The notes under the pieces: model-generated | What the model was told of the DNA's origin: nothing | What the model saw: only the letters and a program-made list of their open reading frames with translations | Databases searched by the model: none | Shown: piece by piece, positions 6,001 to 31,286 of the stretch | Numbering within the stretch: the first letter of the stretch is position 1 | Layout of the letters: each line of letters begins with the position of its first letter | From: a bacterium | Lineage (GTDB): Bacteria > Planctomycetota > Planctomycetia > Planctomycetales > Planctomycetaceae | Direction of reading: 5' to 3' | Assembly: GCA_016124895.1 (NCBI GenBank) | Contig: WGMU01000068.1 | Span: 1-64,000 of the forward strand | Length of the DNA stretch: 64,000 nucleotides | Made by a program: the position numbers and the translations under genes

Positions 6001-9000
6001 GTATTGCTGCTGACGTCGGCACCGTCGACATCCAGCGTGGCACTGCCGTCGTTGAAGATGCCGCCGCCACTGCCGACTGTTGCATCGTTATTGTTGACCG
6101 TCACCGTCGCGCCGCTGAGCGTGATATCCCCACCAGAGTTGAAGATGCCGCCGCCGTTACCGGCCGACGCCGTGTTGTTCGTAATCGAGACGTTGCTGCT
6201 GAGCGAGAACGTCACGCCTTGATTGAAGAGACCACCGCCACCTTCAGTTCCCAGCGTTCCGTCGGCTGTATTGCCATCGATGCTGGTGTCCGAGATCGAC
6301 ACAGACGTCGTTCCGCTGGACAGAAACAGGCCGCCACCGTTGTCTCCGGCCATGTTGCCGGAAACGACGGTCGTGTTCTCCAGCGTCAGGCTAATCGAAC
6401 TCCAGATGCCCCCACCGTCGCCGTTCGTTGCGGTATTCCCGCTGACGGTCGAACCATCCACGTCCAGCGTGTCCTGGTTGTAGATACCGCCACCGTTGGT
6501 GGTCGCTGTGTTCCCGGTGACCATCGAATTCGACTGAATCGTGGCCGTGCCGGCGTTGAAGACACCACCGCCGATTGCGCCTGCGGTGTTGCTGCTGATC
6601 GTGGAGTTCGTGACGGTCAGCGTGCCATTGTTATTCGCGATACCGCCACCGGCGGTGTTGGTCGCGTCGTTCAGCGTGACCGTCGAGTCTGTGATGTTCA
6701 GCGTCCCGCTTTCGTTCACGAAACCGCCGCCTCGACCGCTGGTTCCGTCGGCCGTGTTTCCGGTAACGAGTGAGCCGTTCTGTACATTGACGGTGCCACC
6801 GGCCGAAACGAAGACGCCACCACCGCCCTGGTCAAAGAGGTTCCCGCTGGCTGTGTTGCCGCTGATCGTCACTCCGTCGATCGTCATCGTGCCGGAGCCG
6901 TTCCACAGTCCGCCGCCCTCTTCAGCAGCATCGTTGCCACTGACCGTTCCACCGGTGATGTTGACACTCCCGGCACCGGTGACGTGCAGGCCGCCGCCGT
7001 TGCCTGGGTTCGGAGAACCCGCTCCGCCGTCCACATCGTTGTTCGTCAGCGAAACGTTCGTCAGCGTAACGCCCAGACCGGCGCCCGAGTTATCCTCGAT
7101 ACCACCACCCGCGCGATTGGCGCTGTTGCTGTCGATGATCGCACCGGTCGCCACCAGGGTTCCGCCCGCATCAATGAGGATACCACCGCCGGAACCCATC
7201 GTTCCGTCGGCAACGTTGTTCGAGATCGTGACGGTGTTCGGACCGTTGTCCTGAATCACCACGTCACCGCCAGCGCTGAAGATGCCGCCGCCGCCCTGAT
7301 CCATGCTGTTACCGCTGGCCGTATTGCCGTCGATCAGCACGCTGCCCGACGTGTCGCTGATGGTCAGGATACCCGTGCCGATCCACAGACCGCCGCCTTC
7401 TTCACGGGCGTCGTTGCCGGTGATCGTGCCGCCATCGATGAGGACGTCACCGGCTCCGGTCACGTGCAGACCGCCGCCGTTACCTGGATTCGGTGAGCCT
7501 GCTCCACCATCAACATCGTTGTTCGTCAGCGTGACGTTCGTCAGCGTGACACCCAGACCTGCGCCCGAGTTGTCTTCGATACCACCACCGGCGCGGTTTG
7601 CGCTGTTGCCGTCAATCAGCGTCCCAGTCAGATTCAGAACACCGCCGGTATTGTTGAAGAGACCGCCGCCGCTGCCGGCTGCGCCATCCGCCTGGTTGTT
7701 CGTGATCGTAACGGTGTTGTCGAGCGTCAGCGTCAGGCCGTCGTTGAAGACACCGCCGCCGCCGTTCGTCGATGCCGCTCCGCTGGCGGTGTTGCCATCG
7801 ATGTCGGTATCGCTGATCGAAATCGTCCCCGAGGCGCCGTCCAGATACAGACCACCGCCGTTCGTGCCGGCCGTGTTCGCGGAAACGTTGGCGAGGTTCT
7901 GCAGTGTCAGATCGCCGGTGTTGTAGATACCGCCGCCGGAACCGGCTGTCGCATCGTTGCCGTTGCCGGTCGTACCAATCGATGAAGCATCAACGGTCAG
8001 CGAAGCGCCATCGTTGTAGACACCGCCGCCGTCACCGTTCGTCGCCGTGTTGTTCGTAATGGTCACTCCGTTCTGCAGAACAACGTCGTCGTTGGCATAA
8101 ATACCGCCACCATTGCCGTCGGCCGTGTTCCCGTCGATCGTCGTTCCGTCGATGGTCAGCGTTCCGCCAGAGCCGTCGCCGTAGTAAATGCCGCCGCCGT
8201 CATCGGCTGTCGCCATGTTGCCGCTGACGGATCCACCTGTGATGTTGACGTCGCCCGTCACGTCAACGTCCAGACCGCCACCGGCCACGGCCGTATTGCC
8301 GTCCAGCGTCACGCTCGTCAGCGTCAGCAGTGTCGTGGCGTCGTGCTCGATACCACCGCCCCAGCCGTCCGTAGCACGGTTGTTGGTGATGGTGCTGCTG
8401 GTGACGGTGAGCGTTCCGCCATTCGTGTTGTAGATACCGCCGCCCGCGGCATCGGCCACGACCTGAGCTTCGTTGTCGTCGACCAGTGAACTGTTCTGGA
8501 TTGTGACCGTGCCGCCGTTGTTGAACAGGCCGCCGCCCTGGCCCGTCACGGTGTTACTCTGAATCGTGACGCCATCAAGCGTGGCGGTCGCGCCGCCGTC
8601 GAGATACAGGCCACCGCCATCGTCGGCCGTGTTGCCGCCAAACGCCACGCCCGTGAGCATTGCCGTCGTGTCGGTGCCACTCGTGCTGTTGACGATCAGC
8701 GCACCACCGCCGACGCCTCCAGTCGCGTCGTTGTTCGCAATCGTGCCGCCGGTGATGTTCAGGGTTTCGACTTCCGTCACCAGCAAACCGCGACCATTGC
8801 CGCCCGTGTCGATGTCGACATTGGTCATGTCGACCCGGTCGGACGCCGTACCGTCGCCGTTGATGATCAGCGACGCGCCGTAGCCCGTGTCGAATGTGTT
8901 GACCGCCAGCGTGTCTCCCATCGTGCCGAGATTGACTGTCAGCGAACCGGACGGGTTCATGAAGAACGTATCCTCAAACGTGGAGCCGGTCAGTTCGTTG

Positions 9001-21244: not shown

Positions 21245-21273
21245 GGCCGATGCCTTTTGAATGTCACGCACTC

Positions 21274-21360
21274 GTTTGACCTCAGGCCGCAGGCGTGCGT
21301 GTTTCTGGTTCAAGCTGCGCTTTCCAGGACGACGCGTACGCCTGCGGCTTGCGGTCAAAC
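21274..21360. repeat. Imperfect palindrome inside the ABC operon
   Basis: Left arm 21274-21301 (GTTTGACCTCAGGCCGCAGG...) and right arm 21333-21360 (...CCTGCGGCTTGCGGTCAAAC) are imperfect inverted repeats of about 28 bases around a 31-base centre. It occupies the gap between the ATPase stop and permease start, so the transcript would carry a long hairpin. It may lower permease expression relative to the ATPase or protect mRNA ends; dispersal elsewhere in the genome is an inference. Confidence 0.75.
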
Positions 21361-21368
21361 AACGGTGG

Positions 21369-22720: not shown

Positions 22721-23563
22721 CATTCCGCTTCGTCCTGTCAACGCCAAAGTCACGTATTTGCCCGGAAAGACCTTCTCGACAGTGTTAATTACATGCACTT
22801 GCGTTCTGAGGCCGCCTGCCTGGCCAACAGAAGAAAATGAAAGCGAAGATGCACTTGGATGGACAGCGCCACGTTGTGGCGAGAGGTTGTGGCAAGTCGA
22901 GAGCGCAAAAGGGGCATTGTCATGTGGGGGTGCGAGGGTTGAGGCAGGGCCTGATGCGGGTGACGTCGAGTCCCGGGATGCCGGAGTCGACATGCGAATC
23001 TTACGGCGAGACCGGCGGGCGTGTTTGTTCCGGGTGCTGTGGTATTCCTGTGGCTCCAGTTCTTCCGTGAAACGTGCGTGGCGGCAACCCGGACACAGTT
23101 CCGTCGTATTCAGGCAGACGTACATTGCGCTCCGCACGCCTTCCAGAGTCACTCGCACCGACGGGTCCGGAGACGCATTGAACTCCGCCCGCATCCGCCC
23201 ACAGAACAGGTGGATCAAGGTCGTCACAAAGAAAAGAATGGCCACACCGACGCCGACAGACTGACCTTCGCATACCGCCGAGCCGTCACACGTCCGCCGG
23301 CGAATGCAGAACTCAACGTCCCGTCAACGCTGCTAAGTCTGTGCGCGAGCGATTCTCGAAACCCACCGCCGCCAGTCAGTTCTGCGAACTGGCTGGTGAG
23401 ACGTCATCAAAAGACGACGAAGAGCCAGCTTCGGAACACGTCGCCTGGACGATCACCCGCCGCGTCATCCTCAACCTTGACGGAGCCATTACGAAAGAGT
23501 GAGCAGCGGGCCTGTGGATTTACCTGTTCGGCATGTAATTTGTATTTTCTTACACGTTCTCGA
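22721..23563. other. Long region without a firm gene; possible minus-strand small ORF
   Basis: A minus-strand frame from GTG 23245 has GC-rich third positions and could encode a short protein: a hydrophobic segment (AILFFVTTLIHLFC), then a paired-cysteine stretch (YVCLNTTELCPGCRHARF) and an Arg/Lys-rich tail. It runs in frame without a stop into the GntR gene, so its true end is unclear; it may be chance or a decayed gene. A plus-strand frame covering 23021-23701 is antisense to it and looks spurious. The last 50 bases are AT-rich and lead into the promoter at 23564. Confidence 0.35.
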
Positions 23564-23593
23564 TTGACACACTTCCGGGGGGGGGGGTATATC
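23564..23593 (+). promoter_or_regulatory. Sigma70-like promoter with an 11-G spacer tract
   Basis: TTGACA (23564-23569) is a perfect -35 hexamer; TATATC (23588-23593) is a good -10 match. The 18-base spacer contains an unbroken run of eleven G (23577-23587) directly before the -10. Loss or gain of one G would change the spacer to 17 or 19, the arrangement that makes porA and similar Neisseria promoters phase-variable. AT-rich sequence lies upstream. Transcription would begin near 23600, about 58 bases before the ATG of the cysteine-rich protein gene. Confidence 0.6.
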
Positions 23594-23658
23594 TGCTCTC
23601 CAGTGACAACGGGCCGTCTGTTGCCTGTCCTTCTGACTCAAGCTTTCTGGAGAACACG

Positions 23659-24141
23659 ATGCGAACTGTTACGTCTCTCTGCGCTGGCGCGGCACTCCTG
23701 ATCTCAGCGACCTGTCTTCCGGAGTTGAACGCTGCACGTCCTCTGAATGCTGCATCGCAAGCACAGGTTTACGGCGGTAGCAATGCACAGAATCCGGGGT
23801 CATGCCTGCCTGGGGCCTCCGGAACGCAATGCAACGGCACTCCGGAAGTATGTGACCCTGGTACTCCATACTGTCAGGAAACGCATGAGGAGTACCTGTG
23901 CGGGGCTGAGGTGCAATACTACAATCCCACCAGATGCACTGCGGACACGACACCGCCGTATCTGCTGCAATGTGACGAAGTTGATGACCCCAAAATAGAA
24001 TGTTACCGGACGCGATATTGCTTTTGCGTTGATGATGCAATGTCAGGCTGGATATGCAAGGCTGAGCAGGCTGGCGAAGAGACGCCATGGTTCAACATTA
24101 ATGTCGGAAAGTGTACCAATTCGCCAGCAGACGGATCATAG
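23659..24141 (+). CDS. Small cysteine-rich secreted protein with a VYGG motif
   Basis: 160 residues, start supported by TCTGGAGA 8 bases upstream. Residues 1-25 are a signal peptide (LCAGAALLISATC, cut near LNA). Then comes LNAASQAQVYGG, ending in a double glycine that resembles the leader end of peptides cut by C39 peptidases. The remaining part has 12 cysteines spread evenly (for example CYRTRYCFC), an even number fitting a disulfide-rich fold. I recognise no family. A C39-like peptidase is encoded 2.5 kb downstream on the same strand, so this protein could be its substrate; that link is an inference. Base composition is lower in GC than neighbouring housekeeping genes. Confidence 0.8.
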   Translation: MRTVTSLCAGAALLISATCLPELNAARPLNAASQAQVYGGSNAQNPGSCLPGASGTQCNGTPEVCDPGTPYCQETHEEYLCGAEVQYYNPTRCTADTTPPYLLQCDEVDDPKIECYRTRYCFCVDDAMSGWICKAEQAGEETPWFNINVGKCTNSPADGS

Positions 24142-24389
24142 AATCGATTTGGCCTGTTAACACGATGGTGTCATGCCTGCTCCGGATGGCATTGACCATC
24201 AGGGCAACAGTATGACGATATCAGTCAGCGGCGTTTGTGACTCGGGAACGCATTGGTGTTCACGCTGACGCGTGTTTTTGATGCAGTCATCCCGCTCCTG
24301 TCTGCGACGTAGAGCATCCTGTTGGCGGTTGTATGTTAACAGGTGCAGCACGTCCTGCTGGATCGATGCTTAGAATCGGAAGAATATAC
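24142..24389 (+). other. Spacer between the cysteine-rich gene and the downstream operon
   Basis: The 248-base gap contains a weak terminator-like hairpin at 24261-24279 and then 110 bases leading to the next start. The hairpin could let most transcripts end after the first gene, giving much product from it and less from the five genes behind it. I see no separate strong promoter. Confidence 0.45.
24261..24279 (+). terminator. Weak hairpin followed by five T
   Basis: CACGC (24261-24265) pairs with GCGTG (24270-24274) around a 4-base loop, followed directly by TTTTT. The stem is short, so partial termination is more likely than complete. Confidence 0.4.
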
Positions 24390-25562
24390 ATGTGCGTCCC
24401 GAAATACTGTGACGGTGATGTGCTGCGGTATCGGCGCTCTCCAGCGCGTTGTACGATACTGGCAATTGCTCAATGTCTATGCTTTGCAATATCCGCACTC
24501 GGTCAGGATTCAGTGAAGGATGTGCTCGCAGAGGTGTGTGCAGGCTCTGATGAGAATCTCTCGCGGATTACACATGCTACCCTCACGTACGAGTCCGAAG
24601 GAAAGTGGAAAGGGCCATCTACTCCACCTGGGCTGGAGCAGATAAAGGATCCGCTGACACGCGAGCATATCCGGGAAGCATATCAGCCCGAGACAACATC
24701 GTTAGCCAGAAAAACGGTATTCTGGGATGGCTTACGGCTACGGGTTGACCGCACACTCCCTCCCGAAAGAAAAGAATACACGATCGTTGGGACTGAGGAC
24801 GCAATTGTTTTTCTGGCGCCGTGGCTGGGCACAGACAAACAATACGAACCGATCGAGTATGTCGTTCGAATCAGGACACGTGAAGATGTCGGCATCCCTG
24901 ATGGCCATCCATTGAACCAGGGAGTGCCGATGGATGGGCGTGATCAGAGACTTGCAATCAGTGATTATCTGAGTATAGCCCAGGAGCGAAATCTTGACAT
25001 TGATGTTTCTCGCGAAGGTCAATTGATTCGGCTTCTGGTTGACGATGTCGAACGAAAGTCTCGCAGGGAGTTTGTGATCGATCCAGACCAGGGCTACAAC
25101 GCTGTCACTTACAGGCACTGGTCAACAAAACGTTCGGATGTAGAGCCTGATGGCGTAATCGAGAGCGAATACGCAGAGGGGCCGCCGGGCGCATTTCACA
25201 TGGTTCATCAGACAAACTGGTCGTCGGCAGGAGTTTCCCCATCGACTCCGGAGCGCATTGTCCGCGAAAGCGAAACGCGCCTGGTTGATTCAGACTTCAG
25301 TGCGCCACCTGATCCGTCGGTGTTTTCGCTTGATGGGTTGGGAATACCAGTCGGAGCGAGAATTGAAGATCAGATCACCGGCGAGACGTACCACTACGGA
25401 GTTGATGCACCGGCGGGCGGCACTCTGGACGGCATCGAATGGAAGGCCAGCGGGCCGAAGAACGGTCAGGACTGGTGGAAGTGGGTTGTTCTGGCTGCGG
25501 TCATGCTGTGTGGCGGGCTGTTTTTTGTTCGCCAGCGCTACCGGTCTCGGCTGGGAACATAA
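24390..25562 (+). CDS. Signal-anchored membrane protein of unknown function
   Basis: 390 residues from ATG 24390, preceded by CGGAAGA at 24377-24383; ATGs at 24333 and 24366 are in frame but lack ribosome sites. A hydrophobic segment (about 20-38, ILAIAQCLCFAISALG) is a signal peptide or anchor. The large middle part is soluble, with a beta-rich look recalling LolA-like or outer-membrane lipoprotein-sorting folds (phrases such as TIVGTEDAIVF), but I cannot assign a family. Near the end is FSLDGLGIPVGARIEDQITG, then a transmembrane helix (WVVLAAVMLCGGLFFV) and a basic tail RQRYRSRLGT, so the bulk is probably outside the cytoplasm. DUF1573 follows after 21 bases. Confidence 0.8.
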   Translation: MCVPKYCDGDVLRYRRSPARCTILAIAQCLCFAISALGQDSVKDVLAEVCAGSDENLSRITHATLTYESEGKWKGPSTPPGLEQIKDPLTREHIREAYQPETTSLARKTVFWDGLRLRVDRTLPPERKEYTIVGTEDAIVFLAPWLGTDKQYEPIEYVVRIRTREDVGIPDGHPLNQGVPMDGRDQRLAISDYLSIAQERNLDIDVSREGQLIRLLVDDVERKSRREFVIDPDQGYNAVTYRHWSTKRSDVEPDGVIESEYAEGPPGAFHMVHQTNWSSAGVSPSTPERIVRESETRLVDSDFSAPPDPSVFSLDGLGIPVGARIEDQITGETYHYGVDAPAGGTLDGIEWKASGPKNGQDWWKWVVLAAVMLCGGLFFVRQRYRSRLGT

Positions 25563-25583: not shown

Positions 25584-26708
25584 ATGAAACCGCATATCGG
25601 CGTGCTCGTCCGACTGCTGGTATTTTCCGGCAGTGTCGTGCTCGCTGGCTGGGTCTGGACATCGACCTCTTCTGTAGATTCGGCCGCTGGAGAACAACTG
25701 TTGGCTCTGTCGTCTGCGCCAGCATTCATTGACCTTGGCGCGGTCACGTCGGCTCAATCCGAAGTGAGTTATGCAGTCACGAACCGATCGGATGCGGAAG
25801 TGCGTGTGCAGATTCTGCAGGCGTCGTGCGGCTGCATGGACGCGGAAATTGACCGCTATCAGATTCTGCCAGGCGAGTCGGCCAGGGTGACAGCGGTCAT
25901 CCGTCACAATCGGATGGGGGCTGGTGCAGAGATCCCGTTCTCGCGCCGGATCACGGTGGTGTATGCCACGGGTGATGAAGTGAATGAACTGCACCTGATT
26001 GCGAATGGCAGTTTCCTGCCCCCGGCCTGGATCGAGGAACAACGAGCAGAACTCAAGAAGAGTGACTCCGACGAAATGCTGGTCGCGGATGTCCCTGTGT
26101 TTCTTCGGGCCGAGCCACGGGTGGAAATCAAGGCCACGCACGTTTTCGGCCGAGACCTGGACTGCACTGCTGAAGTCATCGACGTAACCGATGAGCGGCG
26201 ATCAGAATCTGAAAGACGATGGCTTCGAGCAACTGTTCGAGTTCAGGGAATCGCCCGGAAGCTACCTGCGACCGGGTTGCTGACGGTGACGACTGACTCG
26301 CCGGAAACACCACAAATCAGAGTGTCACTCGTCTGTCAGTCAGATGACCCGTTTGCCGTCGCGTGCGTCCCTGAAACTCTGGCTTTCGGTATTCTCGAGT
26401 CGGGGCAGGTGGCAACTCGGCGAGCGGTGATTTCCTGGAATCGCGAGGCCCATTCGCGGATCGTTGCAGTTCAGGCCAGTGAGGGCTTCAAAGTGCTGAA
26501 TTCCCCAGAGACCAGGCCGGACGGCACACGCCTTATCTGCCCGATTGAAGTCTCAACGACTGGCCCGGTCTCGACATTGGGCGAGTTGAAAGGGCACATT
26601 CACGTCGAGTTACTGAGCGATACCGACCCGACAAAGGCAACGGAAATTCGCATTCCAATCTCGGGGTTTGTCAAAGCTGCGTCTGCAGAACCGGAGAGCA
26701 GCCGATGA
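25584..26708 (+). CDS. DUF1573 domain protein
   Basis: 374 residues. An N-terminal hydrophobic stretch (LLVFSGSVVLAGWVW) directs export or membrane anchoring. The DUF1573 domain (about 45-140) has the hallmark SCGCM (C82, C84) followed by ILPGES, an Ig-like beta-sandwich found in many Bacteroidetes and planctomycete envelope proteins. A second similar sandwich, without the CGC motif, spans about 255-370. Function in the family is unknown; the CxC pair may bind metal or take part in disulfide chemistry, notable beside a cysteine-rich secreted protein. It overlaps the next gene by 4 bases. Confidence 0.9.
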   Translation: MKPHIGVLVRLLVFSGSVVLAGWVWTSTSSVDSAAGEQLLALSSAPAFIDLGAVTSAQSEVSYAVTNRSDAEVRVQILQASCGCMDAEIDRYQILPGESARVTAVIRHNRMGAGAEIPFSRRITVVYATGDEVNELHLIANGSFLPPAWIEEQRAELKKSDSDEMLVADVPVFLRAEPRVEIKATHVFGRDLDCTAEVIDVTDERRSESERRWLRATVRVQGIARKLPATGLLTVTTDSPETPQIRVSLVCQSDDPFAVACVPETLAFGILESGQVATRRAVISWNREAHSRIVAVQASEGFKVLNSPETRPDGTRLICPIEVSTTGPVSTLGELKGHIHVELLSDTDPTKATEIRIPISGFVKAASAEPESSR

Positions 26709-27187
26709 GAAAAATCATCGCTTTCCTCCTGTGCTGTGCCGTGCCATCGGTGATCTGCGAAGGAGCATCGTTCAGTCAGACGGTTGCACGCCGCTTTTAC
26801 GGAGTGAATTCGTGCGGTCCGGTTGCTCTGGCGATTGCCTGCCGCGTCGCTGGCCGATCTGTTCCCTGGATTGATGTTTGCGAAGCGACTCATTTCGGTG
26901 GAGACGCGATCAGTCTGCTTGATCTGTCGCAGGGAGCTGGGGAGCTGGGCTTCAAAGCTGAGGCTTTTCAATGCAATGCTCGACAACTGGAACGGTTTGG
27001 TGGACCAGCGATCGTTGATTTTCCGAAAGGGCACTTTTCGGTCTTCCTCGGGTGGTCGGATGACGGCAAGGTTCGTGTCGGCGATTTGCGGACGGGTGTT
27101 GTCAGTTATCCGACCGCGGAGTTTGCCACCAGATGGGGCGGCCACCTGTTGACCATTCAGGTACCAGACTCAGCCTCCAGGCCATGA
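26705..27187 (+). CDS. Exported C39-like cysteine peptidase
   Basis: 160 residues with a signal peptide (KIIAFLLCCAVPSVICEG). The catalytic triad of a papain-like C39 fold is visible: C37 in VNSCGPVALAIACR, H110 in KGHFSVFLGW and D127 in VRVGDLRTG, with the correct order and spacing. In ABC-linked C39 peptidases a glutamine six residues before the cysteine forms the oxyanion hole; here that position is F31, so activity or mechanism may differ. Unlike bacteriocin exporters it stands alone and is itself exported. ATGA overlaps at both ends couple it to DUF1573 and to the next gene. A role in cutting the VYGG protein at 23659 is inferred. Confidence 0.85.
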   Translation: MRKIIAFLLCCAVPSVICEGASFSQTVARRFYGVNSCGPVALAIACRVAGRSVPWIDVCEATHFGGDAISLLDLSQGAGELGFKAEAFQCNARQLERFGGPAIVDFPKGHFSVFLGWSDDGKVRVGDLRTGVVSYPTAEFATRWGGHLLTIQVPDSASRP

Positions 27188-29040
27188 AAACGCATCTGGC
27201 AGTACGACGCGGGCTGATGGTGATGCTCGAATCACCAACTGCCGTCGCTGCAGTGGTTGTGCTGCACGTTCTGCTGCTCGTCAGGGCGGCATGGAGTCTG
27301 TCGCCGACGATCGATGAGCCCGGTCATCTTGCTTCCGGAATCAGTTACTGGCGACAGGGCCATGTGAAACTGTACCGCGTCAATCCTCCGCTCGTCCGGA
27401 TGATTGCTGCACTGCCGGCAATGGCAGCAGGAGCCCAAGCGGAACCCGAAAAATGGGATCAGTACGAGACGACGCGGCCTGAATTCCCGGCAGGAACAGA
27501 TCTGTTGCTGAGTAATGGCAGGCAATCTCTGCACCTGTTCTCACTGGCAAGGATGCCCGTCATCGGCTTCAGCGTCTTCGGCGCTCTGTGTTGCGGGGCG
27601 TGGGCCAGAGACATGTTCGGACCGATTGCCCGGTTCTTCGCCGTGACGGTGTGGTGTTCCCACCCGCTCGTACTTGGACACGGTGCAATGATCACCGCCG
27701 ATGTGGCAGCAGCCGCAACTGGTGTGTTTACGGCATACCTCTTTGCCCGCTGGCTGCGTCAGCCGCTGTGGGCTCATGCGACCGCATGGGGGTTCGCCCT
27801 GGGGATCAGTCTCTGCGTGAAGTCGCTCTGGTGCCTGCTGGGACCATTCTGGCTGATGTGCTGGGGATGCTTCCGTTTGGTCGTCCGACGCCAGCGGATC
27901 GGGCGTGAGTTGCTTCAGTTGCTCCTCGGCGGATGTTTGAGCTTCATCGTTGTTAACAGCGTGTATTTGTGGAGTGACGTCGGCAGACCGCTTGGCGAAC
28001 TGGACTTTCGGAGTCACTTTCTGACAGGCCGCGAGACAGTGACGTCACTATCCGAACCGACCAGTAATCGATTCCGCGGGACGCTGGTTGGGAAACTGCC
28101 GGTTCCGATTGCCGCCGACTATCTCGAAGGCATGGATTTGCAGCGGGTCGATTTTGAACGAGCTTACAGCACATGGATACTGGGCAAAAAACGGATGGGG
28201 CCGGTTCATGAGTTTTACCCTGTTGCGCTGATCCTGAAGACTCCGCTGGGAATGATCGCATCTGCACTGCTTGCGCTGCTTTTCCCGCCGAAACTCCCAC
28301 TGGCGGACGGAATCGTCCTGTTCGGGATCAGTGCGTCTGTCGCAGCGACCCTGGGCTTGCACGCGACGGTTAATCATGTTCGCTATGCGCTACCTCTGTT
28401 GCCGTTCGCTGCGATCTGGATCGGTGGAGCGGGGAGCGGGTTGTTACGACATCACTTCGGAGTATTCGCTGGCTTTTCCGGCTGCCTTGCTGCCGGTGCC
28501 GCCAGCAGCATTCTGGTCAGTCCGTGGCATCTCTCTTACCTGAATGAATTGGTGCGGCCCGGCAGGCAGGCCGCTCTGTGCTTCGTCGACTCGCAGACGG
28601 ACTGGGGACAAGGGCTTCTGGCTCTCAGAGACTGGCTGGATGCACATCCCGAAGTTGACCGACTGAAGATGGCGTACTATGGAACCGTGCCGCCCTCGCT
28701 GGCCGGAATCGAATTTGAGTTACCACCTGCCTGGCCGGTCTCGGAGGCGCTGCTGAATGTGGCAGCAAAATCGGGCTCAGTTATCGGGCCTGACGAGGGA
28801 TGGTACGCGATTAGTGGCTCGCTGCTCGTTGGTGCAGACGGCCGAGTCATCGCCCCCGATGGCCGACGAATTGATATCCAGTCGCCCTGCTTCCGATGGC
28901 TGCTTCAGGCCGAACCCGCTGCCGTTGTTGGGGGAAGTATTTTTCTGTTCCACATCACAGCGGCGGAAGCGCATCACATCCGGTTGCAGTTCGGTCTGGT
29001 TGCCCTCGCAAAGTCGACCGATGCAGGCGAACGGGAGTGA
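27184..29040 (+). CDS. GT-C / GT39-like polytopic membrane protein
   Basis: 618 residues from ATG 27184, which overlaps the C39 stop as ATGA; an ATG at 27133 is unlikely because it lies deep in that gene. About ten hydrophobic helices. The first periplasmic loop has SPTIDEPGHLASGISYW, with the acidic pair seen in GT-C enzymes of the ArnT/PMT (GT39) class, which move sugars from a polyprenyl carrier to protein or lipid. It may glycosylate a secreted partner, for instance the cysteine-rich or DUF1559 protein of this cluster; this is an inference from position only. Confidence 0.8.
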   Translation: MKTHLAVRRGLMVMLESPTAVAAVVVLHVLLLVRAAWSLSPTIDEPGHLASGISYWRQGHVKLYRVNPPLVRMIAALPAMAAGAQAEPEKWDQYETTRPEFPAGTDLLLSNGRQSLHLFSLARMPVIGFSVFGALCCGAWARDMFGPIARFFAVTVWCSHPLVLGHGAMITADVAAAATGVFTAYLFARWLRQPLWAHATAWGFALGISLCVKSLWCLLGPFWLMCWGCFRLVVRRQRIGRELLQLLLGGCLSFIVVNSVYLWSDVGRPLGELDFRSHFLTGRETVTSLSEPTSNRFRGTLVGKLPVPIAADYLEGMDLQRVDFERAYSTWILGKKRMGPVHEFYPVALILKTPLGMIASALLALLFPPKLPLADGIVLFGISASVAATLGLHATVNHVRYALPLLPFAAIWIGGAGSGLLRHHFGVFAGFSGCLAAGAASSILVSPWHLSYLNELVRPGRQAALCFVDSQTDWGQGLLALRDWLDAHPEVDRLKMAYYGTVPPSLAGIEFELPPAWPVSEALLNVAAKSGSVIGPDEGWYAISGSLLVGADGRVIAPDGRRIDIQSPCFRWLLQAEPAAVVGGSIFLFHITAAEAHHIRLQFGLVALAKSTDAGERE

Positions 29041-29045
29041 GTCCC

Positions 29046-30041
29046 ATGAATGCTGTATTCGACCGGTCAGCAATTCCTCGACATTGCAGAACATGTCGTG
29101 AGCGTCGTACAGGACTGACTCTGCTCGAACTGCTGGTGGCCATTGCGGTTATTGGTGTGCTGCTGGCCCTGCTCCTGCCAGCGATCCAGTCTGCTCGTGA
29201 GGCAGCGCGACGAACTCGATGCAGGAACAATCTGCGGCAGATCGGGCTTGCCACGGATCTGCACGTCGACGCGTGGGAGCATTACCCGACCAATGGCTGG
29301 GGCTTTCGATGGGTTGGAATGCCGGACCGCGGATTCGGTCCCGAACAGCCGGGAGGCTGGCTTTACAACATCCTTCCCTATCTTGAGCACGTGGAACTAC
29401 GCCAGGCAGGTAGCGGACAGCCTTTTGCGGTCCAGCGTCAGGCATTGGCTCGCGTTGGATTAAACGGGCTGCCCGATTTCGCGTGCCCGAGCCGGGCGAG
29501 CGGGCTCCGGGGGCCTGCTGAGCCAAATGTCATTCCGGTTAATGCTGACTGGCTGCCAGTCGTTGCAAAAACGGATTATGCAATCAGCGAAGGCGACACT
29601 ATTACCGGTACAAACGGCGGTCCTGGCAGCTTGGCAGAAGGAGACTCCGTTACATATCTGTGGCCGTCGACAGACAAGGTAACAGGTGTCTCTTTTCTTC
29701 GGAGCACGGTCCGTCGTTCATTCATTACGGATGGTCTGTCGAACACGTTGCTGGTCGGCGAGAAAAACGTTTCCCGCGATGGTTACTCGACCGCCTCTGA
29801 TCCGGGAAATGATCAGTCGATGTTTTGCGGTGTTGACTGGGATATCAATCGCTGGACGATCGAACCGCCATTGCCTGACGGCGATAGCCCGCAACCGACA
29901 CGATTCGGCAGCGCTCATTCTGGTGGCAGCCAGGTCGTTTTCTGTGACGGCCATGTTTCTCTAATCTCATGGGACATCGATTCGCAGATTTTCAGGCGAC
30001 TTGGTAATCGAGAAGACGGGGAACCGGTATTCGTGCCGTAA
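29046..30041 (+). CDS. DUF1559 protein with type IV pilin-like N-terminus
   Basis: 331 residues from ATG 29046, five bases after the previous stop. The N-terminal part holds GLTLLELLVAIAVIGVLLA, the prepilin cleavage and methylation helix, followed by SAREAARRTRCRNNLRQIGLA, which opens nearly all planctomycete DUF1559 proteins. The C-terminal part ends with the family's FGSAHSGGSQVVFCDGHV box. The family is very numerous in planctomycetes and is thought to form pseudopilins or surface fibres. Being last in the operon suggests a surface-exposed or secretion-related product. Confidence 0.95.
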   Translation: MNAVFDRSAIPRHCRTCRERRTGLTLLELLVAIAVIGVLLALLLPAIQSAREAARRTRCRNNLRQIGLATDLHVDAWEHYPTNGWGFRWVGMPDRGFGPEQPGGWLYNILPYLEHVELRQAGSGQPFAVQRQALARVGLNGLPDFACPSRASGLRGPAEPNVIPVNADWLPVVAKTDYAISEGDTITGTNGGPGSLAEGDSVTYLWPSTDKVTGVSFLRSTVRRSFITDGLSNTLLVGEKNVSRDGYSTASDPGNDQSMFCGVDWDINRWTIEPPLPDGDSPQPTRFGSAHSGGSQVVFCDGHVSLISWDIDSQIFRRLGNREDGEPVFVP

Positions 30042-30086
30042 CGAGCTGAAAATTATGGCTCAAGTCCGTGCCGTGAGAGTCGCGGC

Positions 30087-31286
30087 TTATTCCTCGTCAA
30101 GGAGTTCGACAGCTTCGAACTTTTTGCCTTCGAGCATTTCGAGGCTGGCGCCGCCGCCGGTGCTGATGTGCGTGACTTTGTCGGCGAAACCAAGCTGCTG
30201 GATCGCGGCCGCGCTGTCTCCGCCGCCGATGATGCTCGTCGCGCCGCTGTTCGCAATTGCTTCGGCGACGATTCGCGTGCCGGCGTCGAACGGTGGCATT
30301 TCGCAGACGCCCATCGGGCCGTTCCAGACAACCGTCTTCGCCGAGCTGACCAGCCCGGCGTAACGCTTCGCGGTTTCCGGTCCGATATCCAGCCCTTCGA
30401 AGTCGTCTGGAATCTGGCCGGCGGTGACGACGACCTTGTTGCAATCGGCGCTGAAGTCGTCGCCGCAGTGCGTATCGACCGGCAGTTCCAGCTTGTCGCC
30501 GGCAGACGCCATCAGTTCTCTGGCCAGCTCGATTTTGTCCGGCTCGACGAGGCTCTTACCGACCTTGTTGCCTCTTGCCAGTTCAAACGTGTAAGCCATC
30601 GCGCCGCCAATCAGCACCTTGTCGCAGACCGTCAGCAGATTGCGAATTACGTTGATTTTGTCTGAGACCTTAGCGCCGCCAACGATTGCGACGAACGGCC
30701 GATCGGGGTTGCTGATCGTGTCGGCGAGATAGCGGATCTCCTTCAGCAGCAGAACTCCCGCAACGCGCGGCTTGCCGGCCATTTTCAGCGGCACCAGGTA
30801 CATCGACGAGTCCGTGCGGTGGCAGGTTCCGAAGGCATCGTTGACATAGACGTCGGCGAAGGACGCGAGCGTTTCGGCGAACGGTTCTTTAACGCTGTTA
30901 TCTGACTTGCGATCCTCGCCCGGATTGAAGCGCAGGTTTTCGAGCACCAGTACCTGGCCGTCCTGCAGCGCGGCGACCTTCGCGGCGGCGTCATTACCAA
31001 CCGTGTCCGTCGCGAAGGCGACGTCATGGCCGAGCAGCTCGGCGAGTTTGTCAGCGGCCGGCTTGAGGCTCAGCGACGCAACGATTTCGCCCTTCGGACG
31101 GCCGAGATGGCTCATCAGAATCACGCGGCCACCGCGTTCAAGAATCGACTGGATTGTCGGCAGCGCCATACGGATACGCAGGTCGTCAGTGACGTTCTGG
31201 CTGTCGTCGAGCGGCACATTGAAGTCGACTCGCACCAGCACTCGCTTTCCGGAAACGTCAAGGTCGGCAACAGTTTTTTTGGCCAT
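30087..31286 (-). CDS. pgk: Phosphoglycerate kinase
   Basis: 399 residues from ATG 31286, preceded by CCAGGA. It moves the phosphate of 1,3-bisphosphoglycerate to ADP in glycolysis (EC 2.7.2.3). Signatures: [21 protein letters not shown] at the N-terminus (substrate arginines), [28 protein letters not shown] and the nucleotide-binding end [11 protein letters not shown] with [11 protein letters not shown]. Length is normal. Its terminator is not obvious in the 45-base gap to the convergent DUF1559 gene. Confidence 0.98.

Follow-up and report, generated by a model that had tools for sequence, protein, structure and literature searches.

A candidate phase-variable promoter with a poly-G spacer upstream of an operon for a cysteine-rich secreted-type protein in a planctomycete

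In the window, the 64,000-nucleotide stretch of planctomycete DNA that was analysed in this study, a promoter-like element lies upstream of an operon whose first gene encodes a cysteine-rich protein (the promoter parts, the operon genes and the gene remnant described below are on the forward strand). A -35 hexamer TTGACA (23564..23569), identical to the consensus at six of six positions, is followed by the stretch CACTTCC (23570-23576) and by a tract of eleven G (23577..23587), which closes the 18-bp spacer and abuts the -10-like hexamer TATATC (23588..23593). Direct reading thus confirmed the original prediction, which had described TTGACA and TATATC separated by 18 bases including eleven G. 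TATATC agrees with TATAAT at four of six positions and lacks the T at position 6. Therefore, the site is absent from a strict sigma-70 scan, which requires this T. Hexamers flank the tract as in promoters of the PorA/Tp0126 type, weakly so on the -10 side. The tract is uninterrupted and exceeds the length of about 8 from which slipping is expected, and the spacer of 18 is near 17, where changes by one base would matter. The ATG of the cysteine-rich ORF, at 23659, is located 65 bases past the -10 hexamer.

Long G runs are rare in this genome. Within the window, searched on both strands, no other G run of at least 9 was found; this tract gave three overlapping matches against 0.44 expected, a number reached in 3 of 100 shuffles. 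The whole genome (G000; 8,134,610 bases) contains 14 separate G runs of at least 9, three of which are 11 long. TTGACA with a hexamer matching at least four of six positions at a spacing of 15-20 occurs at four places in the window. Scaled up, this would give approximately 500 such hexamer pairs per genome, and by a rough estimate a run of at least 9 would be expected inside such a spacer about 0.004 times per genome.

The first gene of the operon (23659..24141) encodes a secreted-type protein of 160 aa with 14 Cys residues, 12 of which follow a QVYGG motif. By eye, its start resembles a signal peptide and a leader motif is recognizable. The tract had been predicted to precede a secreted cysteine-rich protein and an envelope operon, and the signal-peptide-like start of this gene agrees with that and points to a surface or secreted product under its control. 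The second gene, here called gene-2 (24390..25562; the reading frame extends back to an ATG at 24333), encodes a secreted-type protein with a C-terminal hydrophobic segment. Neither protein belongs to a Pfam or NCBIfam family, and in single-sequence searches each matched itself in a single genome (one of 40 for the cysteine-rich protein, one of 59 for gene-2). The structure model of gene-2 (pLDDT 52) was too poor for fold identification, and Foldseek ranked LolA first (E 3.3e-3, with no match at 1e-3), a weak hint of a LolA-like fold. Next are a DUF1573 protein of 374 aa (25584..26708; E 3.3e-10, above cut-off) and a C39 peptidase of 160 aa (26705..27187; E 2.7e-12, above cut-off). The C39 domain alone covers the whole length of this peptidase, which has no ABC exporter part; in NCBIfam it matched NHLM_micro_ABC1, FilB and FapD weakly, all far below cut-off. 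By eye, a GG-like motif is present in the cysteine-rich protein (QAQVYGG), and motifs of the GS/GH type in three relatives (G159, G227 and G045). A multi-pass membrane protein, recognized by eye (27133..29040; ORF of 635 aa, the true start being perhaps later) and without a Pfam or NCBIfam family, and a DUF1559 pseudopilin-like protein with a prepilin motif (28896..30041, probable start 29046) complete the set.

Just upstream of the promoter region, the 3' remnant of a gene was found (23233..23498), which resembles a gene ending in contig G001:C586 (68.6% over 274 columns; DUF1553-type by eye). G001 is a sister species of the same genus, and its assembly is 84% complete. PGK and the next gene are present there at 85%, and no match to window positions 26001-30087 was found in the remaining 10 kb of that G001 contig. 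In G159 (L064), the operon is located between a gene at 760-1371, which by eye is sugar-nucleotide pyrophosphorylase-like, and a second copy of the 3' part of this gene at 6140-6751 (612 bp, 90.7% identical). This arrangement suggests an insertion in which the end of the gene was duplicated. Taken as a whole, these observations suggest that the operon is mobile and accessory. Separately, window positions 21273-21362 gave several weak matches on both strands in G001, as expected for a dispersed and partly palindromic repeat.

A second tract was observed in the same genome on contig C61 (L059 3804-9765). Here, a G9 run lies between TTGATT and TAGCAT with a spacer of 18, a weak promoter; 46 bases separate the end of its -10-like hexamer from a methyltransferase ORF. 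Downstream of this ORF come a secreted-type protein with 12 Cys, a protein of gene-2 size, a weakly matching DUF1573 (18.8 bits, below the cut-off of 26.1), a 421-aa ORF and a DUF1559 protein. The gene-2-sized protein was unrecognized by the gene-2 profile described below.

The layout was then followed across related genomes. A strict pattern, TTGACN{3,12}G8N{0,6}TATA, gave three sites in 170 genomes of the family and none for the backward control. Apart from the window site in G000, these are TTGACA and TATACT with a spacer of 18 containing G10 in G159, and TTGACG and TATAAT with a spacer of 14 containing G10 in G045. Each of the three heads a cysteine-rich secreted-type gene followed by a gene of 343-433 aa. 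DUF1573 was recognized in the operons of G000 and G159 by Pfam and in that of G045 by eye, C39 in G000 and G159 by Pfam, and DUF1559 in G000 by Pfam and in G159 by eye.

A looser pattern, TTGACN{3,12}G8N{0,6}TANNNT, was searched in 397 genomes of the class Planctomycetia with the reversed pattern as control; it misses the window site, since TATATC has no final T. After three rows that repeated a site with another -10 had been left out, it matched at 82 distinct sites spread over 61 genomes, and the reversed pattern at 31 sites in 29 genomes. The difference was pronounced for long tracts: runs of at least 11 were present at 24 of the 82 sites and at 0 of the 31 control sites (Fisher p 0.0002), and runs of at least 10 at 32 and 2 sites, respectively (Fisher p 0.0005). 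The other 50 sites have runs of 8 (36 sites) or 9 (14 sites), and many of these must be chance matches. The reversed pattern is a harsh control, because base composition favours it: in 1.36 Mb of fetched planctomycete DNA, TANNNT (10,258 occurrences) is 2.2 times rarer than TNNNAT (23,063), and TTGAC (2,655) is slightly rarer than CAGTT (2,860), in a sample of 306 sequences that includes pattern sites and overlapping loci. When 334 genomes were drawn from across the phylum (27 within the class and 307 outside it), the pattern with G10 or longer gave 23 matches, corresponding to 22 sites, in 17 genomes, all of them outside the class, against 3 for the control. The class and phylum samples are largely separate genome sets. 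Beyond the planctomycete samples, a wider contig scan contained at least 118 stretches of the form TTGACA-N-G9-TATA. Of the 80 matches listed, roughly half had titles naming Clostridia or Bacilli, and a few named Saccharibacteria; downstream of L091, the sole Planctomycetota-titled match among these 80, no ORF of at least 60 codons starts within 400 bases.

Sites with long runs tend to precede genes for predicted exported proteins. This was scored with a home-made rule rather than SignalP (an ATG at most 300 bp away, 70 or more codons, a positive start and a hydrophobic 11-mer). Sites with less than 300 bp downstream were dropped, which left 31 of 32 sites with runs of at least 10, 46 of 48 with runs of 8-9, 29 of 31 control sites and 18 of 22 phylum sites; two of the 82 sites (G113:C26 and G060:C95) had been left out of the neighbour analysis. 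A signal-peptide-like first gene was present at 18 of the 31 long-run sites compared to 3 of the 29 control sites (Fisher p 0.0001), at 16 of the 46 sites with runs of 8-9 (Fisher p 0.03 against the same control), and at 11 of the 18 sites of the phylum set. Among the 107 ORFs within 4 kb downstream of long-run sites (107 of 109, after two references repeating a G212 gene had been dropped), Pfam recognized 9 DUF1559, 7 DUF1573, 3 PEP-CTERM, 2 C39 and 2 MauE. The 124 ORFs near run-8 sites included 8 DUF1559 and 4 DUF1573 together with housekeeping families, and the occurrence of the latter argues that many run-8 sites are due to chance. Near the control sites (98 ORFs), DUF1559 and DUF1573 were not among the 25 commonest of 107 families, where counts of 1-2 are possible. 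The contrast in Pfam families between long runs and run 8 is modest, and the signal-peptide contrast is the better test.

Counting the G run in related genomes, which the original prediction had named as a check, revealed that tract length varies between near-identical copies of such promoters in other genomes. G030 and G031 have a locus in common in which the tract is G11 in one and G14 in the other, with 94 identical columns before the tract and 218 after it. To the hexamer picked by the pattern, their spacers are only 11 and 14; a more distant TATTTT would give spacers of 18 and 21. In the one-contig assembly of G212 (L241), two paralogous promoters located 1.9 kb apart carry G14 and G12 and are 94.6% identical over 204 bp. 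This similarity spans the promoter, the leader, the start codon and the first codons, after which the cysteine-rich coding regions diverge, so that an exchange of cargo behind a common switch is possible. Copies at contig ends of G580 have G10 and G11 and are also one T apart further upstream. Paralogous promoters of G435 and G368 have TTGACA and a CGCC core in common, with runs of 10 and 8, respectively, and two copies at contig ends of G378 both have G9. These data represent differences between copies and not switching as such, and the window species is represented by one assembly.

Gene sets of this kind do not always carry the tract. For gene-2, a profile was built from 8 proteins; in a leave-one-out test, 8 of 13 candidates beat all decoys, the window protein weakly (15.6 bits). 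The candidates from G159, G242, G198, G253 and C61 failed this test and were dropped from the profile. Since homology is unrecognizable by sequence there, the sharing of gene-2 in G159 and C61 rests on position and size only. The profile matched in 123 of 397 genomes. At the 24 non-seed loci among the 30 gene-2 loci listed, no G run of at least 7 was found over the 1.5 kb that precede the matched stretch, counted from a point that often lies inside the gene. Likewise, all six C39 relatives in other genomes, among the 170 family genomes, had no tract in the 4-7 kb upstream. On these counts (0 of 24 independent gene-2 loci and 0 of 6 C39 relatives), we rejected a general rule by which all operons of this type would carry a poly-G promoter. 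Among 16 gene-2 matches inspected over a wider region, a tract was present only at the seed L398, at G230:C113 (G12) and in G212 (C9). The G12 of G230:C113 (L354 914-925, reverse strand) immediately precedes the start codon ATG of a gene-2 homolog, a position in which it could affect translation instead of a promoter spacer. The C9 tract in G212 (L387, G212:C1:1823000-1830000) lies a short distance past a TTGACT, upstream of a further gene-2 homolog, and is possibly a poly-C version. Operons that combine cysteine-rich and gene-2 genes but have no tract were seen as well; one example is a tandem array in G386 (L400), which contains two MauE-like genes (by eye), two cysteine-rich and three gene-2-type genes without poly-G.

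The original prediction of a possible phase-variable promoter that acts by spacer slippage is supported by this comparative evidence, namely the enrichment over the backward control, the signal-peptide-like genes and the length differences. We therefore consider it likely that the window contains a sigma-70-type promoter of the PorA/Tp0126 kind, in which a hypermutable G11 in the spacer would control the operon of the secreted 12-Cys protein. Slippage in the window strain, the use of TATATC as -10 and an effect on transcription are inferred. During replication, slippage would add or remove G residues and shift the spacer through values such as 16, 17, 18 and 19; RNA polymerase would use the promoter well near 17-18 only. 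Potentially, a clonal population would then become a mix of cells in which the operon is on, reduced or off. In the window copy the operon is probably on, because its spacer of 18 is near the optimum of 17. The cysteine-rich protein would be exported and act at or outside the cell surface, and the C39 peptidase may trim it after the GG-like motif. The presence of this motif after a Sec-type signal, together with a stand-alone C39 peptidase, suggests by eye that such trimming would take place outside the cytoplasm.

A comparable arrangement was described for porA of Neisseria meningitidis, where a poly-G tract lies between -35 and -10 and the transcript level tracks the number of G (PMC3899988, PMC7864442). 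As a model, porA fits in that a homopolymeric G tract in a promoter spacer is combined with an exported product. However, the -35 of the window promoter is a perfect TTGACA, this promoter is known from sequence alone, and the planctomycete operon encodes cysteine-rich, DUF1573, C39 and pseudopilin-like proteins. In Treponema pallidum, tp0126, which encodes an OmpW homolog, has poly-G between -35 and -10 with the best activity at 17 (PMC7864442). The position of the tract is the same as in the window promoter, whereas the effect was reporter-tested there and is inferred here. A poly-G or poly-C of variable length in the promoter is also a feature of T. pallidum tprL and N. meningitidis opc. The combination of a C39 domain, a GG-like motif and a small cysteine-rich product resembles C39/double-glycine systems (bacteriocin exporters, FapD and FilB). 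In contrast to these, the window peptidase stands alone without an ABC transporter part, and its product seems by eye to use a Sec-type signal peptide. The window operon was not assigned to these secretion systems, because its peptidase is not fused to an ABC exporter.

It might be argued that the promoter is real and that its G-rich spacer is fixed at 18 without any switching, the tract being neutral or tuning promoter strength. A promoter can work with a spacer of 18, the window species is known from one assembly, and the 24 further gene-2 loci and 6 C39 relatives manage without a tract. A fixed spacer does not account for the scarcity of G runs of at least 9 in this genome (14 in 8.13 Mb), for the enrichment of long runs in promoter position (24 against 0 in the backward control) or for the variation in G number between copies with near-identical flanks, and we regard it as unlikely.

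Less probable again, and in our opinion very unlikely, is that the tract matters as a DNA structure of the G-quadruplex type or as a recombination hot spot for new coding sequence, rather than through the spacer. The G212 copies, which are alike up to the first codons and then diverge in their cysteine-rich regions 1.9 kb apart, would suit such a role, as would the G159 operon between a gene and the 612-bp, 90.7% copy of its 3' part. Neither activity requires that TTGAC be paired with a TA-rich hexamer at a fixed distance, though, and the orientation preference is promoter-like. Moreover, 11 G are too few for a three-layer intramolecular G-quadruplex, which counts against a structural role of G11. 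Chance, or a sequencing or assembly artefact caused by poly-G read errors, is the explanation to which we give the least credence: the genome is indeed a draft of 195 contigs and several other sites are located at contig ends (e.g., G378:C31, G016:C296 and G580:C124), but the window tract lies in the interior of a contig of 108.8 kb, assemblies that consist of one or two contigs (G212, G030 and G382) contain the same layout, and the backward control matches far less often.

Promoters that switch by spacer slippage have been described in host-adapted bacteria, among them Neisseria and Treponema. The mechanism as such is thus already known; the host group and the breadth of its occurrence are unexpected. 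In line with the original prediction, which knew of no described phase-variable promoter of this kind in planctomycetes, no paper on switching promoters in Planctomycetes was found in the part of the literature that was covered. In PMC5845749, the term 'phase-variable' occurs in connection with microscopy, and PMC4060949 describes G patterns as over-represented in the planctomycete Isosphaera pallida.

It is tempting to speculate that poly-G spacer promoters switch secreted, matrix and cysteine-rich proteins stochastically throughout the phylum and that, at some loci such as the one in G212, a cassette of promoter and signal peptide is re-used with exchanged cysteine-rich cargo. We hold these two proposals jointly as a tentative view, quite possible without being probable. 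If true, they would amount to a diversity system resembling antigenic variation or bacteriocins in bacteria that are not known as pathogens. The analysis yields a list of loci at which switching of the tract can be tested directly, and points to a little-described operon that comprises a cysteine-rich protein, gene-2, DUF1573, sometimes MauE, C39 and DUF1559. Because the layout is enriched and variable in length in many planctomycete families, this study suggests that environmental bacteria may also hedge by switching secreted proteins.
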